DNA from: Gemmatimonadaceae bacterium
GTDB taxonomy: Bacteria > Gemmatimonadota > Gemmatimonadetes > Gemmatimonadales > Gemmatimonadaceae
Length of the DNA stretch: 64,000 nucleotides
Assembly: GCA_030835125.1 (NCBI GenBank)
Contig: JAUQWM010000033.1
Location: 62,001 to 126,000 of the forward strand
Direction of reading: 5' to 3'
Shown: in pieces, positions 50,864 to 56,757 of the stretch
How positions within the stretch are numbered: position 1 is the first letter of the stretch
How the letters are laid out: each line of letters opens with the position of its first letter
Program-made: the position numbers and the translations under genes
The notes under the pieces: model-generated
The model's database searches: none
Told to the model about the DNA's origin: nothing
Seen by the model: only the letters and a program-made list of their open reading frames with translations

Positions 50864-51376
50864 ATGGCGCCGGTGGACGTGGTGCGCACGTACCTCGAGA
50901 TAACCGCTCCCGCGCAGCAGGCGGGACGCGCGACGTTCCCCCCAGGCCTCGACCTGGCGCGCGAGGCGTGCGATCCCGCCACGTATCGCGCGCTCTATGA
51001 TGGCGTCGGCGGCGACTATCACTGGCGGGATCGGCGCGCCTGGACGGACGCCGAGCTCCGCACGCACCTCGCGGCGCCGGGGATCGAGACGTGGGTGCTG
51101 CGGGAGGCGGGCGTCCCGCGCGGGTTCTTCGAGCTGGCGCGGCACGGTGACGGCGCGGTGGAGATCGCGTACTTCGGGCTGGTCCGCGCGGCGATCGGGC
51201 GCGGGCTGGGCGCGGCGCTGCTGACGGCGGCGATCGACCGGGCCTGGGAGATGGCGCCCTCGCGCGTCTGGCTCCACACCTGCACGCTCGACCACCCGGC
51301 GGCGCTCCCGAACTACCTCGCCCGCGGGTTCCGGGTCACGCACACCGAGCGCTACGCCACCGACGTCCCTGCCTAA
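50864..51376 (+). CDS. GNAT-family N-acetyltransferase
   Basis: The product is 170 residues. The acetyl-CoA-binding motif A is RAAIGRGLGAALLTAAIDRAW (residues 106-126), with VWLHTCTLDHPAALPNYLARGF as motif B. The substrate is unknown. It follows the CGNR regulator by 8 bp and converges on the helicase gene with stop codons overlapping; its TAA lies in a GCCTAACG octamer. Confidence 0.85.
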   Translation: MAPVDVVRTYLEITAPAQQAGRATFPPGLDLAREACDPATYRALYDGVGGDYHWRDRRAWTDAELRTHLAAPGIETWVLREAGVPRGFFELARHGDGAVEIAYFGLVRAAIGRGLGAALLTAAIDRAWEMAPSRVWLHTCTLDHPAALPNYLARGFRVTHTERYATDVPA

Positions 51377-54066
51377 CGACGTCGCCGCCGGTGCCCGCCC
51401 GGGCCCGGCCCCCGGCCCTTGCCCCGGTGGCCGCCCGGCCGGCCCTGCGGCCGCTCCCGTCGCGCCGGCCGGCGCTCCTGGTACTCGTCAGGCGACCACG
51501 GCCGGTCGAGCAGCGCCTGCAGCTCCGCGAGCGACGAGGCCCGCACCGCGCCCCGCGGCCCGCGCAGGACCACGAACCGCATCGGCCGGTCGAGCACCGG
51601 CAGTTCCGGCTCCACCAGGGTGCGGGCGAGCTTCTCCGGCAGCCGCAGGCGCGCCACGCCGGTCATCGTGCCGGCCTCGTCCGCCTCGACGTCGTACTCG
51701 ATGTCGATCCACTTGCCCCGGATCTCCGTCGCTCCCGGCAGCGCCAGCAGCCGCGCGCGCTCCGCATCGCCCAGCAACCCGACGAAATCCAGCCGCAGCG
51801 CGGCCTGCCGGTACCCCTCCATGTCGCCCACGCCGGCGAGCGTCGTCTCGTAGCCGGCCGCGAGGTCGGCCAGGGTGAGCCGCGGCGTCGTGCCTCCCGA
51901 CCGGCGATAGAGCTCACGAGCCTCGTCGATGGCGCGACGGTTCCGGCGAACGGCGGGATGCCGCGCCTCACCGCGGGCCAGCGCCATCGCCAGCGCCTGG
52001 CGCGCTTCCGTTTCGCGGCCCGCGGGGAATTCCTCCACGGGCTCCTCTTCCCGTTCGAGCTCGAAGCCGTGGTACGTCACGCGCCGGGTCAGGATGAGGC
52101 GGTCCCTTGGCCCGTTGGAGGCCACTGCCAGCACCCCGTCCTGCGTGACGGCATTCCGCCGGACGAGCGCATTCGGCAGTTGCGTGCCCTCGATGCTCGC
52201 GCGCGGCACGCCGAACCGGTCGGCGAAGTAGCGCAGCGTGCCCGTGATCGCGCCCCACGACCCGCACACGCTGGTCTTCGAGACGCGAGCCTCCTGGCCA
52301 TCCGCGGTTTCCTCGTCGATGACCAGGTCGAAGGGCATGATCCGCGCCAGCAGCTCGCAGAAGGCACGGCGCATGGTCTCCGTCACCATCGGCAACGAGG
52401 CTGGAAGCGGGACCTCGAGGCTGCGACAGACGCTCGCCATCGCCAGAGCCGTGTCCTCGATGGCCTTGATGAGGACCCCGCGCCGTTCGGACCAGTGCTC
52501 CATCGACGGCTCGTCGAACAGGTGACGCGGCAGGCCGTAGACCTCGCCCACGTACCCCGTCTTCGCCAGCGCCTCGGCGTACACGTTGTACGCGGTGAGG
52601 TGGTCGCTCCCCTGCACCACCAGCCCCTCGAGGTTGCGATCCTCGCGCGTCATGCGGTGGAGCGATTCGGCCGACGCCATCACCGCCAGCGCCGGCACCA
52701 GTGCGTCGTCCGCCTGCACGAGCAACTCGGCCCACGGCCGGTCGACGGGCGTGGCCTCGACGAGCCGGCCGTACTTCGTCAGGCGCCCGTCCTCGACGAT
52801 GCCGCGCGACTCGAGCCGGGCCAGCGCCGCCCGGTAGGCCACCCGGTCGAGCGGCACCGGGAGGTCCAGCTCGTCGGCACGCACGCCTAACGCGGCGCAC
52901 GTCATCGCCACGCGCTCCGAGTCGCCCGCCAGCTGGAACTCCGGCGCGGTGGGCTGGAGGTCCTGGAACGACAGGTTGCGGTCGCTGAGCAGGAAGACCT
53001 GGCCGCCCTCGACGCGCCCGTGCACACGACCCGCCATCTGGAGGATCTCGTTCGCGCCCAGGTGCGTCCGGGTCAGCACGTTCCGCCCGCGCTCGACGAC
53101 GTTGGTGAAGCGCGTGTCGTCGATGACGACCGTGTCGAGTCCCTTGACGTTGAGCGCGCTCTGGCCCGCGGCCGTCATCGCCAGCACGTAGGGGCGGGGC
53201 GCGCCGTCCTCCAGGAACGGCCGGATCACCCGGATCGGCTCCCCACCATGGTAGAAGGCGGCGTGGATCCGGGGGAATCGCTCGCCCACGAGCCGCGCCG
53301 CTTCCTCCACCCCGGCGCGCGTCGGCAGGAAGACTCCCACGCCGCGGCGCTGCCGGACGACCTGCTGCAGGAACCGATCGCCAAGGAACCGGTCCGGGGA
53401 CTCGTTCAGCACCTTGACCGTGGCCGCTCGGTCCGGGTCGAACGCAACGGTCCTGAGCACCGCGGCGGAACCGAGGTACGCGGCGTAGAACGCCGGGTCG
53501 ACCGTGGCGGAAAGCCAGATGTAGCGGCAACCGACCCGCTTGCCGAGCGCGAGGCAGAGCTCGAGCTCGGCGGACGTCTGGTGGATCTCGTCGACGACGA
53601 GGGTGTCGCCCCGCAGGATGTCACCGTCCTCGAACCAGCGGCGCGCGATGCCGGTGGTCACGATGATCACGTTCCAGGTGGGCGTCTCGGGCGTGGCCTC
53701 GCGCTCGCGATTCACCACACCGACGCGGAGCTCCACGGTGCCGAGGATCTCCTCCGCGATCGGACGGACGGCGAGGGTCTTCCCGGTGCCGGTGCCGGCG
53801 ACGATCCCGAATCCCTTGCCGCCACGGGCGAGCGCCCGGATTTCCGCGCCATGCTCGCGCTCCAGCAGCGTGTCGATGTGCAGCCCGAGCGCGAGCTCGA
53901 TGGTCTCGCAGGCGGCCCGGGTCGGCGCGATCACGATGACCCGGCCGGTGGGCGGCTTCGCCGCGACGAAGGCCTCGTGGTCGGGCGGGAGGGAGCGATC
54001 TCGGACGTCGCGCAGCACGACGGAAGCTCGCCAGTGGACGCCACCGGCGCGAGGCATCGATGGCAC
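51373..54066 (-). CDS. DEAH/DExH-type (HrpB-like) RNA helicase with basic Arg/Gly tail
   Basis: The product is 897 residues. Motif I is GTGTGKT (about residue 91), motif II is DEIH rather than DEAH, motif III is SAT, and the C-terminal RecA lobe contains QMAGRVHGR in the motif VI position. A degradation-type helical region follows. The last 35 residues are Arg/Gly/Pro-rich and strongly basic, which suggests RNA binding. Length and order fit bacterial HrpA/HrpB relatives, but sequence divergence in motif VI makes the subfamily uncertain. Confidence 0.8.
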   Translation of the reverse strand: MPSMPRAGGVHWRASVVLRDVRDRSLPPDHEAFVAAKPPTGRVIVIAPTRAACETIELALGLHIDTLLEREHGAEIRALARGGKGFGIVAGTGTGKTLAVRPIAEEILGTVELRVGVVNREREATPETPTWNVIIVTTGIARRWFEDGDILRGDTLVVDEIHQTSAELELCLALGKRVGCRYIWLSATVDPAFYAAYLGSAAVLRTVAFDPDRAATVKVLNESPDRFLGDRFLQQVVRQRRGVGVFLPTRAGVEEAARLVGERFPRIHAAFYHGGEPIRVIRPFLEDGAPRPYVLAMTAAGQSALNVKGLDTVVIDDTRFTNVVERGRNVLTRTHLGANEILQMAGRVHGRVEGGQVFLLSDRNLSFQDLQPTAPEFQLAGDSERVAMTCAALGVRADELDLPVPLDRVAYRAALARLESRGIVEDGRLTKYGRLVEATPVDRPWAELLVQADDALVPALAVMASAESLHRMTREDRNLEGLVVQGSDHLTAYNVYAEALAKTGYVGEVYGLPRHLFDEPSMEHWSERRGVLIKAIEDTALAMASVCRSLEVPLPASLPMVTETMRRAFCELLARIMPFDLVIDEETADGQEARVSKTSVCGSWGAITGTLRYFADRFGVPRASIEGTQLPNALVRRNAVTQDGVLAVASNGPRDRLILTRRVTYHGFELEREEEPVEEFPAGRETEARQALAMALARGEARHPAVRRNRRAIDEARELYRRSGGTTPRLTLADLAAGYETTLAGVGDMEGYRQAALRLDFVGLLGDAERARLLALPGATEIRGKWIDIEYDVEADEAGTMTGVARLRLPEKLARTLVEPELPVLDRPMRFVVLRGPRGAVRASSLAELQALLDRPWSPDEYQERRPARRERPQGRPGGHRGKGRGPGPGGHRRRRR

Positions 54067-54155: not shown

Positions 54156-54485
54156 TCAGCCTGGCGGGCGCTTGCGCTTCACCGTGTCCGCCGCCGACCG
54201 ACCGGGGGTCCGGATGTCGGCGTTCCGGCCACGGTCCTTCGCGGCCGGGAACAGCACCCGCGCGTTAGGCGGTCGGTTGCGGATCGCGGTCGCGCAGTCG
54301 GTGGGTGCCGGCTGGCGCGCCGCCGGGACGTTGTCCACCCAGATCCGGCACATCCCCGCCGGCGGCAGGGATCCCTTCGGGACCGGGGCCTCCTTCTGCT
54401 TCGGCGCCAGTTGCGTTGGCGCCTGCGCCCGAATCCCGGTCGGGACGACCAGGGCGAGGAACAGCGCGGCGAGCAGGCGAGACAT
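54156..54485 (-). CDS. Small secreted protein with PPAGMCRIW motif
   Basis: The product is 109 residues. A signal peptide ends near GIRAQ. The conserved-looking core PPAGMCRIWVDNVPAARQPA with TDCATA holds two cysteines (C46, C64) that may form a disulfide. The rest is Arg/Lys-rich and low in complexity. The function is unknown. Confidence 0.65.
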   Translation of the reverse strand: MSRLLAALFLALVVPTGIRAQAPTQLAPKQKEAPVPKGSLPPAGMCRIWVDNVPAARQPAPTDCATAIRNRPPNARVLFPAAKDRGRNADIRTPGRSAADTVKRKRPPG

Positions 54486-54567
54486 GGCTGGTGCGTACCC
54501 CCGACCGGGCCCGGGGTTCGGGCCGTGACGAACCTCCCCCGCCCGCGGCCTGCCCCCGAGCCGGAAC

Positions 54568-55647
54568 TCAATCACCGAAGGAAATACCCGTCGCGCGGGC
54601 CGTCCGGACGATGTCGTGATTGGGGTCCACCCGTTTCGGCTCGGCGAGGGCCTCGCTGAACGGCAACGTGACGATATGGGGAGATTGCAGCGCGACCATC
54701 TGGCCCCACTTCTCCTGCTCCACCGCCTCCACCGCGGCCCCCCCGAATCGCGCCGCAAGCAGGCGGTCGTAGCCCGTCGGCATGCCACCGCGCTGCAGGT
54801 GCCCCAGCACCAGCGACCGGGATTCCTTTCCGGTCATCTGCTCGATCTCCCACGCGATCCGGCTCGCGATGCCGCCAACCCGCCGGCTCTGCCCCGGGAG
54901 CGATTCGCCGATGATCGACTCCTTGCCACCCTGCGGATACGCACCCTCGGCGCAGACCACGATCGAGAAGTGGCGACCCCGCTTGTCCCGCGCCTGGATC
55001 TTCTCGCAGACCTTCGCCAGGTCGTACGGGATCTCCGGGATCAGGATCACGTCGGCCGTCCCCGCGACCCCGGCGTGCAACGCGATGAACCCGGCGTGCC
55101 GGCCCATCACCTCCATGACCAGCACCCGATCGTGCGATTCGGCCGTCGTGTGCAGCTTGTCGATCGCGTCGATCGCCGTCGACACCGCCGTGTCGAACCC
55201 GAACGTCGTGATGGTCCCGCTGACGTCGTTGTCGATCGTCTTCGGCACGCCGACTATGCGCATGCCCTTTTCGTAGAAGCGCTGGGCGATCGCCAGCGAA
55301 CCGTCGCCGCCGATCGAGATCAGCGCATCGATGCCCATGTTCCGCGCGTTCCGCAGCACCTCGTCCGAACGATCCACCATCGCGAACTGGCCGTCGGGTT
55401 GCTGCACGGGAAACTCGAACGGGTTGCCCCGGTTCGTCGTGCGCAGGATCGTGCCGCCCATGTGCGCGATGCCGCGCACCGTCTCGGCGTTGAGCGGGAT
55501 GACCTCGTCCTCTCCGAGCAGGCCATAGTAGCCGCGGCAGATGCCGAGGACTTCCCAGCCACGAAGGGTGGCGGAAAGGACCGCGGACCGGATGACGGCG
55601 TTGAGGCCGGGCGCATCACCGCCGCCGGTGGAAAGTGCTATGCGCAT
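54568..55647 (-). CDS. pfkA: 6-phosphofructokinase
   Basis: The product is 359 residues. It phosphorylates fructose 6-phosphate in glycolysis. The N-terminal GGGDAPGLNAVIR, GGDGS (residues 113-117), PKTIDND (135-141) and MEVMGRHAGF motifs are clear. At the two phosphoryl-donor positions it has Gly116 (as in ATP enzymes) and Lys136 (as in PPi enzymes), the combination seen in group III PFKs. ATP is the likelier donor. It starts 9 bp after the SelW-like gene on the same strand. Confidence 0.94.
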   Translation of the reverse strand: MRIALSTGGGDAPGLNAVIRSAVLSATLRGWEVLGICRGYYGLLGEDEVIPLNAETVRGIAHMGGTILRTTNRGNPFEFPVQQPDGQFAMVDRSDEVLRNARNMGIDALISIGGDGSLAIAQRFYEKGMRIVGVPKTIDNDVSGTITTFGFDTAVSTAIDAIDKLHTTAESHDRVLVMEVMGRHAGFIALHAGVAGTADVILIPEIPYDLAKVCEKIQARDKRGRHFSIVVCAEGAYPQGGKESIIGESLPGQSRRVGGIASRIAWEIEQMTGKESRSLVLGHLQRGGMPTGYDRLLAARFGGAAVEAVEQEKWGQMVALQSPHIVTLPFSEALAEPKRVDPNHDIVRTARATGISFGD

Positions 55648-55656
55648 TGATCGCCG

Positions 55657-55878
55657 TCAGGGCGCCAGGAGCCGGACGACCTCACCGGGAGCGGGATGGC
55701 GCTTGAGCGCCCGCTTGGAGAAGACCACCACGCCATCGCGTGAGACCTCGAACACGCCGCCGCTTCCCTCCAGCAACTGCACCGTTGCCTCGGGATACGC
55801 CGCCCGGATCTCGGCCGCCAGCCCGGCGGCCCTCGGCTCGTAGTTTCAGACGACGCAATAGCGGATCGAGACGTGCAT
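55657..55878 (-). CDS. Rdx/SelW-like selenoprotein with in-frame UGA (predicted selenocysteine)
   Basis: Reading from ATG 55878 through the TGA at 55846-55848 to the TGA at 55657-55659 gives 73 residues. With U for the internal codon the start reads MHVSIRYCVVUNYEPRAAG. This is the CxxU redox motif of Rdx-family proteins (SelW, SelT, SelH), and the rest (GSGGVFEVSRDGVVVFSKRA, HPAPGEVVRLL) also fits. A perfect hairpin follows the UGA. The codon usage after the TGA stays like coding sequence. Rdx proteins are small thiol-redox proteins. No selA, selB, selC or selD is in this window, so selenium use must be checked elsewhere. Confidence 0.82.
55813..55831 (-). promoter_or_regulatory. Candidate bacterial SECIS hairpin in the SelW-like gene
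   Basis: On the minus strand a perfect 7-bp stem (GGCCGCC with GGCGGCC) and a 5-nt loop GGGCT begin 14 nt after the UGA. The distance and the G in the apical loop match bacterial selenocysteine insertion elements. Confidence 0.55.
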
Positions 55879-55944
55879 GGGACATCCGGTAAGGGAAACG
55901 GTGCAACCAAGATAGCGCTTCACCAGGGCGGCCCGCATGGCGCC

Positions 55945-56184
55945 TTACGGGGGAACCGGGACTCCGGCCAGGTTCGCCAGCTGGCGCACCACCGTATCGC
56001 GCTTCGCGACCACCGTCGTCAGCGAGTCGACCCGGTCCTGGAGTTCGTAGGAGAGTTGCCGGATCTCATTGATGGCGTCGCCCATCTCCGTCACCGTCTG
56101 TGCCATCTGGAAGTCGCGCTCGGTTGCCGGGAGGCACCCGGTCGCGCCGGCGATGAGGACGAGCAGGAGGGTTCGGTTCCGCAT
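55945..56184 (-). CDS. Small coiled-coil lipoprotein
   Basis: The product is 79 residues. The signal peptide ends in the lipobox-like AGATGC (C17). The mature part is one amphipathic helix with heptad spacing (MAQTVTEMGDAINEIRQLSYELQDRVDSL). It may be an envelope spacer or accessory lipoprotein. The family is unknown. Confidence 0.65.
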   Translation of the reverse strand: MRNRTLLLVLIAGATGCLPATERDFQMAQTVTEMGDAINEIRQLSYELQDRVDSLTTVVAKRDTVVRQLANLAGVPVPP

Positions 56185-56337
56185 GGTCGTGGTGGGTGAG
56201 ACGATGCCCGGAGATTACGCCCATGCGACCACGTCAGCGAGGGCCGCGAGGCGTTGGAATGACACCTGGTGCGTTGCCACGGTGAGACCGCGCGGACCCA
56301 TGGCTGTTATCGTTGCCGCCCAACCACGGGAGGCCCC

Positions 56338-56757
56338 ATGCGCGCCGGCACGACCTTGATCGAGATCGGGATGACGGTTGGCCTCGTCGGACTCATCGCG
56401 GGCGTGACCTTTCCGCGGTTCCGGCAATACCAGGACCGCATTGCGGTGGACGCCGCCTCGACCTCGACGATGTCCCTCCTGGCCACGGCCCGGCATGCCG
56501 CACTCAGGCGCGCCACCGTCACCGCAGTGCGGTTCGATACCGCGGCCGGCGTGGTGCTGGTGGTGGCCGGTGTGGACACGCTGGAGCGACGCCCCCTCGG
56601 CGAGGTTCACGGCATCCACCTCGAGACGTCGCGGGACTCCATCGCGTTCGGGGCGAGCGGGCTTGGGCACGGCGCGGCAAACTCGCGCATCATCATCGCC
56701 CGGGGCGTCGCCAGCGACACCATCAACATCTCGCGCCTGGGGAGGGCCAGGCGATGA
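56338..56757 (+). CDS. Type IV pilin-like / GspH-type pseudopilin
   Basis: The product is 139 residues from ATG 56338, with GGGAGG upstream. The N-terminus is a very short class III leader (MRAG), a cleavage site before TTLIE with the conserved Glu at +5, and a hydrophobic helix (IGMTVGLVGLIAGVTF). The rest is a beta-rich head resembling GspH/FimT minor pilins. No other pilus gene is nearby. Confidence 0.75.
   Translation: MRAGTTLIEIGMTVGLVGLIAGVTFPRFRQYQDRIAVDAASTSTMSLLATARHAALRRATVTAVRFDTAAGVVLVVAGVDTLERRPLGEVHGIHLETSRDSIAFGASGLGHGAANSRIIIARGVASDTINISRLGRARR

Follow-up and report, generated by a model that had tools for sequence, protein, structure and literature searches.

On the minus strand of the 64,000-nucleotide stretch of Gemmatimonadaceae DNA analysed here, referred to as the window, a reading frame of 73 codons and a stop (55657..55878) is interrupted at codon 11 by an in-frame TGA (55846..55848) and ends 9 nt upstream of the 6-phosphofructokinase gene pfkA. 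The locus raises the question whether this TGA is read as selenocysteine and whether the small protein so encoded is connected with the glycolytic enzyme behind it.

Translated with TGA as selenocysteine (U), the frame yields MHVSIRYCVVUNYEPRAAGLAAEIRAAYPEATVQLLEGSGGVFEVSRDGVVVFSKRALKRHPAPGEVVRLLAP before the stop, the redox motif being C8-V-V-U11 with the UGA at the Sec position. With cysteine placed at the TGA, the Pfam Rdx model PF10262 (E 4.8e-18, 65.6 bits, cut-off 22.6, residues 2-71 of 73) and the NCBIfam SelT/SelW/SelH model NF041051 (96.7 bits, cut-off 88) match with scores that exceed their curated cut-offs, along the full protein and across the TGA, and solved bacterial and human Rdx relatives such as 2fa8, 3dex, 2ljk and 2p0g match by sequence. 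The first-pass annotation of the window, which had described a minus-strand frame with a single internal TGA and a complete Rdx-family protein with a CxxU motif and had suggested the family search with cysteine at position 11, is borne out in these respects, as is its expectation that standard gene calling would miss the gene: a plain ORF listing of the window contains no ORF in the right frame that spans the protein, which is broken at the TGA.

The TGA occupies the same codon in all 105 close homologues, which stem from independent assemblies and were collected by a search of the phylum and from contig-derived loci, and TGA-bearing homologues span Gemmatimonadota, Acidobacteriota, Planctomycetota, Krumholzibacteriota, Verrucomicrobiota, Thermodesulfobacteriota and others. 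A rival reading, in which the TGA arose by a sequencing error or by a recent nonsense mutation that turned a Cys-type SelW gene into a pseudogene, is vanishingly improbable, since, although a lone TGA in an otherwise open frame looks just so in one genome and an error restoring TGC or TGT had been named from the outset as what would overturn the selenoprotein reading, its presence in every close homologue rules out both, and the conserved hairpin downstream of the TGA and the Sec machinery of the genome, described below, tell against them as well. Five TGC loci that stood beside the 105 TGA loci in the conservation set represent, according to the tree, a distant paralogue. The TGC homologues L018-L022 and L147-L148, considered as Cys versions of SelW, were rejected as a distant paralogue (YCxxCRWLLRAAW) and left out of the counts; four genomes (G071, G363, G552 and G577) carry the Cys-type Rdx paralogue of this motif plus a TGA copy elsewhere in the genome.

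The same annotation had named the absence of all selenocysteine machinery as refuting its reading and had asked for a search for selA, selB, selD and the tRNA-Sec gene; all four are found above cut-off in the source genome (4.48 Mb, 99% complete): the tRNA-Sec gene, with anticodon TCA, at 69.8 bits (cut-off 47), selB at 336 bits (cut-off 242), selA at 545 bits (cut-off 268) and selD at 365 bits (cut-off 125). The selD gene (L001:1497-2650, minus strand) immediately precedes the tRNA-Sec gene in the same orientation and has an in-frame TGA at the usual Sec site (CAGUAAK); SelD of this genome is most likely a selenoprotein itself, and because selD carries this TGA, UGA decoding would be required by the Sec machinery itself. 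The gene for formate dehydrogenase alpha, which together with selD was covered in the look for selenoproteins, has no TGA. Across 395 genomes of the phylum, an Rdx match was obtained in 193, nearly all with one TGA among the matches listed, and Rdx and selA occurred together in 182 genomes, Rdx only in 11, selA only in 108 and neither in 94 (p 7e-22, in a statistic that treats related genomes as independent). Eight of the 11 genomes with Rdx only carry the TGA; as selB exceeds the cut-off in six of these eight, assembly gaps are the simplest reason for the missing selA, and a likely one. In the TGA carriers G354 and G390, which are 81-82% complete, neither selA nor selB exceeds the cut-off.

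The hairpin downstream of the TGA (55813..55831, minus strand; stem GGCCGCC/GGCGGCC, loop GGGCT) was assessed as a bacterial SECIS by fold energy, by the rules for such elements and by a codon-aware pairing test. It begins 14 nt past the TGA, with the loop 21 nt past it, and folded alone has an energy of -14.9 kcal/mol; hairpin, spacing and loop, as well as the distance to pfkA, are all as initially described. A published bSECIS model asks for a loop of 3-9 nt, an upper stem of 4-16 bp, a distance of 16-37 nt from the UGA and an energy of at most -7.5, with a G in the first two loop positions and G[G/U] allowed (PMC13188914), constraints within which the hairpin of the window falls with its 5-nt loop GGGCU, 7-bp stem, 21 nt and -14.9 kcal/mol. 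The minimum-energy fold of a 48-nt excerpt is a different structure from the 7-bp hairpin; when the 57 nt from the UGA onward are folded, the hairpin belongs to the minimum-energy fold. Single-sequence folding gave z values of -0.67 and -1.73, judged weak as evidence for a hairpin, and the codon-aware test was used instead, in which, among 51 non-redundant relatives (less than 80% identical), codons were swapped only between sequences that share the amino acid of the column. Stem pairing was seen in 324 of 357 cells versus 294.1 (sd 3.1) under this codon-preserving null, and none of 1000 shuffles reached as high a value; double changes in the stem, e.g. from C-G to G-C or T-A at positions 20/32, occur among the relatives. 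The pairing exceeds what the protein sequence imposes, which shows that the hairpin itself is selected, and the caveat raised by the 48-nt excerpt is settled in favour of the hairpin because the comparative evidence decides. Of the loops in 106 TGA sequences, 79 read GGTCT and 14 AGTTT, the remainder being variants; the GGGCT loop of the window, with G where most relatives have U, is common to L095 and L107. A search of Rfam gave no match over the gathering score. In the SelW-like gene of a Granulosicoccaceae bin (L115:6001-6210), a wholly different stem (GCTCTC-CGTGC-GAGAGA) still pairs, with the amino acids changed accordingly.

A Cys form of the gene is present in G129 (locus L134), a genome from the same family that is complete in a single contig, where SelW reads CVGC with TGC at the codon in question and stands at the corresponding position, before a PfkA that is 75% identical to that of the window. 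This genome has no selA match, and neither selB nor tRNA-Sec exceeds the cut-off; tRNA-Sec is present in five genomes of its genus. In the hairpin region of the G129 gene the loop motif is now GCGTT and the closing pair is gone. In the tree the G129 protein lies within the Gemmatimonadales TGA group, on a long branch and with no firm support.

These data also bear on the possibility that the UGA is a true stop behind a 10-codon leader peptide, with the downstream part translated separately or not at all. A short piece close upstream of pfkA is a frequent place for leader peptides, and without selenium a ribosome would halt at the UGA; both halves, however, carry the Rdx profile as a single protein and both are conserved, the hairpin is selected and stands at SECIS spacing, and the Cys form of G129 is one continuous reading frame, all of which makes a leader peptide very improbable.

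SelW-like selenoproteins are an already known and abundant family, to which the gene of the window therefore adds a member. They rank among the most abundant and widespread selenoproteins in ocean surveys and marine metagenomes (PMC1088965, PMC2398784), with few Cys homologues in Sec-using bacteria according to a 2006 survey (PMC1794560), and the function of SelW was called unclear, with an interaction with glutathione noted (PMC1088965). From the bacterial members (PF10262; PMC1088965, PMC1794560, PMC2398784, PMC13188914) the gene of the window differs in no respect of kind, as it shares Rdx homology over the whole length, CxxU, one UGA, an adjacent bSECIS and the Sec machinery in the genome. 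Eukaryotic SELENOW has the Rdx family and the CxxU motif in common with the protein of the window, but its SECIS is located in the 3′ UTR (PMC1088965), whereas the element here is of the bacterial type and lies within the reading frame. None of PMC1794560, PMC13188914 and PMC9312934 mentions Gemmatimonadota.

Two reviews give SelW-like selenoproteins as CxxU with one Sec, and only this form for the family (PMC9312934, PMC13188914). A UxxU form, with TGA at both motif positions (e.g. MNVSILYUGMUNYKPQ), was observed at 12 distinct loci of Verrucomicrobiales and relatives (L104, L109, L111, L119, L121, L150, L152, L154, L158, L166, L168 and L169), with a similar hairpin region downstream of the motif; tRNA-Sec exceeded the cut-off in four of the five genomes in which it was looked for. 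The tree requires three changes of the UxxU label; the form may have a single origin.

Insertion of selenocysteine at UGA by SelB is the established bacterial pathway. At this locus, SelB with Sec-tRNA(Sec) would bind the hairpin past the UGA, and selenocysteine would be delivered at codon 11 to complete a protein of 73 residues that has a thioredoxin-like fold and a redox pair of the form Cys-x-x-Sec. Since this pair stands in such a fold, thiol/selenol redox chemistry is expected, and the product would most likely be a small cytosolic thiol/selenol oxidoreductase, with substrates presumably of the peroxide, glutathione or protein-disulfide type. Taken as a whole, the locus is, with very high confidence, best explained as a working SelW-like (Rdx) selenoprotein gene, with Sec presumably inserted via the hairpin, a probable redox function of the thiol/selenol kind and an mRNA that most likely runs on into pfkA.

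The pfkA gene (54568..55647, minus strand; 359 aa, PF00365 with E 4.5e-101) is a conserved neighbour. Among distinct loci of the order Gemmatimonadales with at least 1600 nt downstream, it follows selW directly on the same strand in 33 of 43. The gap between the two genes, measured at 35 loci, ranges from -10 to 89 nt and is negative at 20 of them (overlaps of 1-10 nt), 14 having the four-base overlap NTGA. These overlaps of the frames fit translational coupling, and co-transcription is supported because the adjacency is conserved and the frames overlap or nearly touch; judged from this arrangement, the selW mRNA most likely extends through pfkA and both proteins would be made together. No sigma-70-like promoter match was found in 54400-56400, a negative result of little weight in this phylum. 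Third in the conserved order is a gene for a helicase-like protein of 897 aa (51373..54066, minus strand), which a tblastn search of related loci with the window protein located in many relatives behind selW or behind selW-pfkA, often as the next gene where pfkA is absent. Upstream of selW, an ORF of 79 residues (55945-56184, minus strand) has a lipoprotein-like start (MRNRTLLLVLIAGATGC), with a 35% identical ORF at the same place in L061, and the translation of a further ORF (56269-56757, plus strand) has a stretch resembling a type II/IV pseudopilin start (MRAGTTLIEIGMTVGLVGLIAGVTF).

Compatible with the selenoprotein reading is the view that no functional tie exists between SelW and the adjacent PfkA, the gene order being kept by descent in Gemmatimonadales. 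The linkage is confined to the order, with pfkA within 3 kb of selW at none of 44 loci outside it, and 10 of the 43 loci within it lack pfkA at that place; on the other hand, the order of the genes is held across deep divergence, down to a PfkA identity of 57%, and the frames overlap at 20 of 35 loci, so that the chances of neighbourhood by descent alone appear evenly balanced. Given that the stop codon of selW overlaps the start codon of pfkA or lies very close to it, it is proposed that mainly ribosomes that have decoded the UGA as Sec would reach the pfkA start, by which selenium supply or redox load would set phosphofructokinase synthesis; such a selenium-dependent control of glycolysis is a speculative and rather unlikely extension. 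A recurrent neighbour of a SelW gene is likewise known from the Prx/SelW two-selenoprotein neighbourhood of GOS reads (PMC2398784), where the neighbour is a selenoprotein, whereas the phosphofructokinase of the present locus is none. A full-text literature search, which covered few subscription papers, yielded no paper on SelW with pfkA, and a fixed place of selW before a glycolysis gene in this bacterial group was not found described.

In the phylum, an Rdx gene is present in about half of the sampled genomes, and the in-frame TGA splits such genes in plain ORF lists. The Cys form of G129, in a genome without Sec machinery, serves as a natural control when asking why Sec is retained, and the fixed order of selW and pfkA is one of the rare clues to what the SelW family does.
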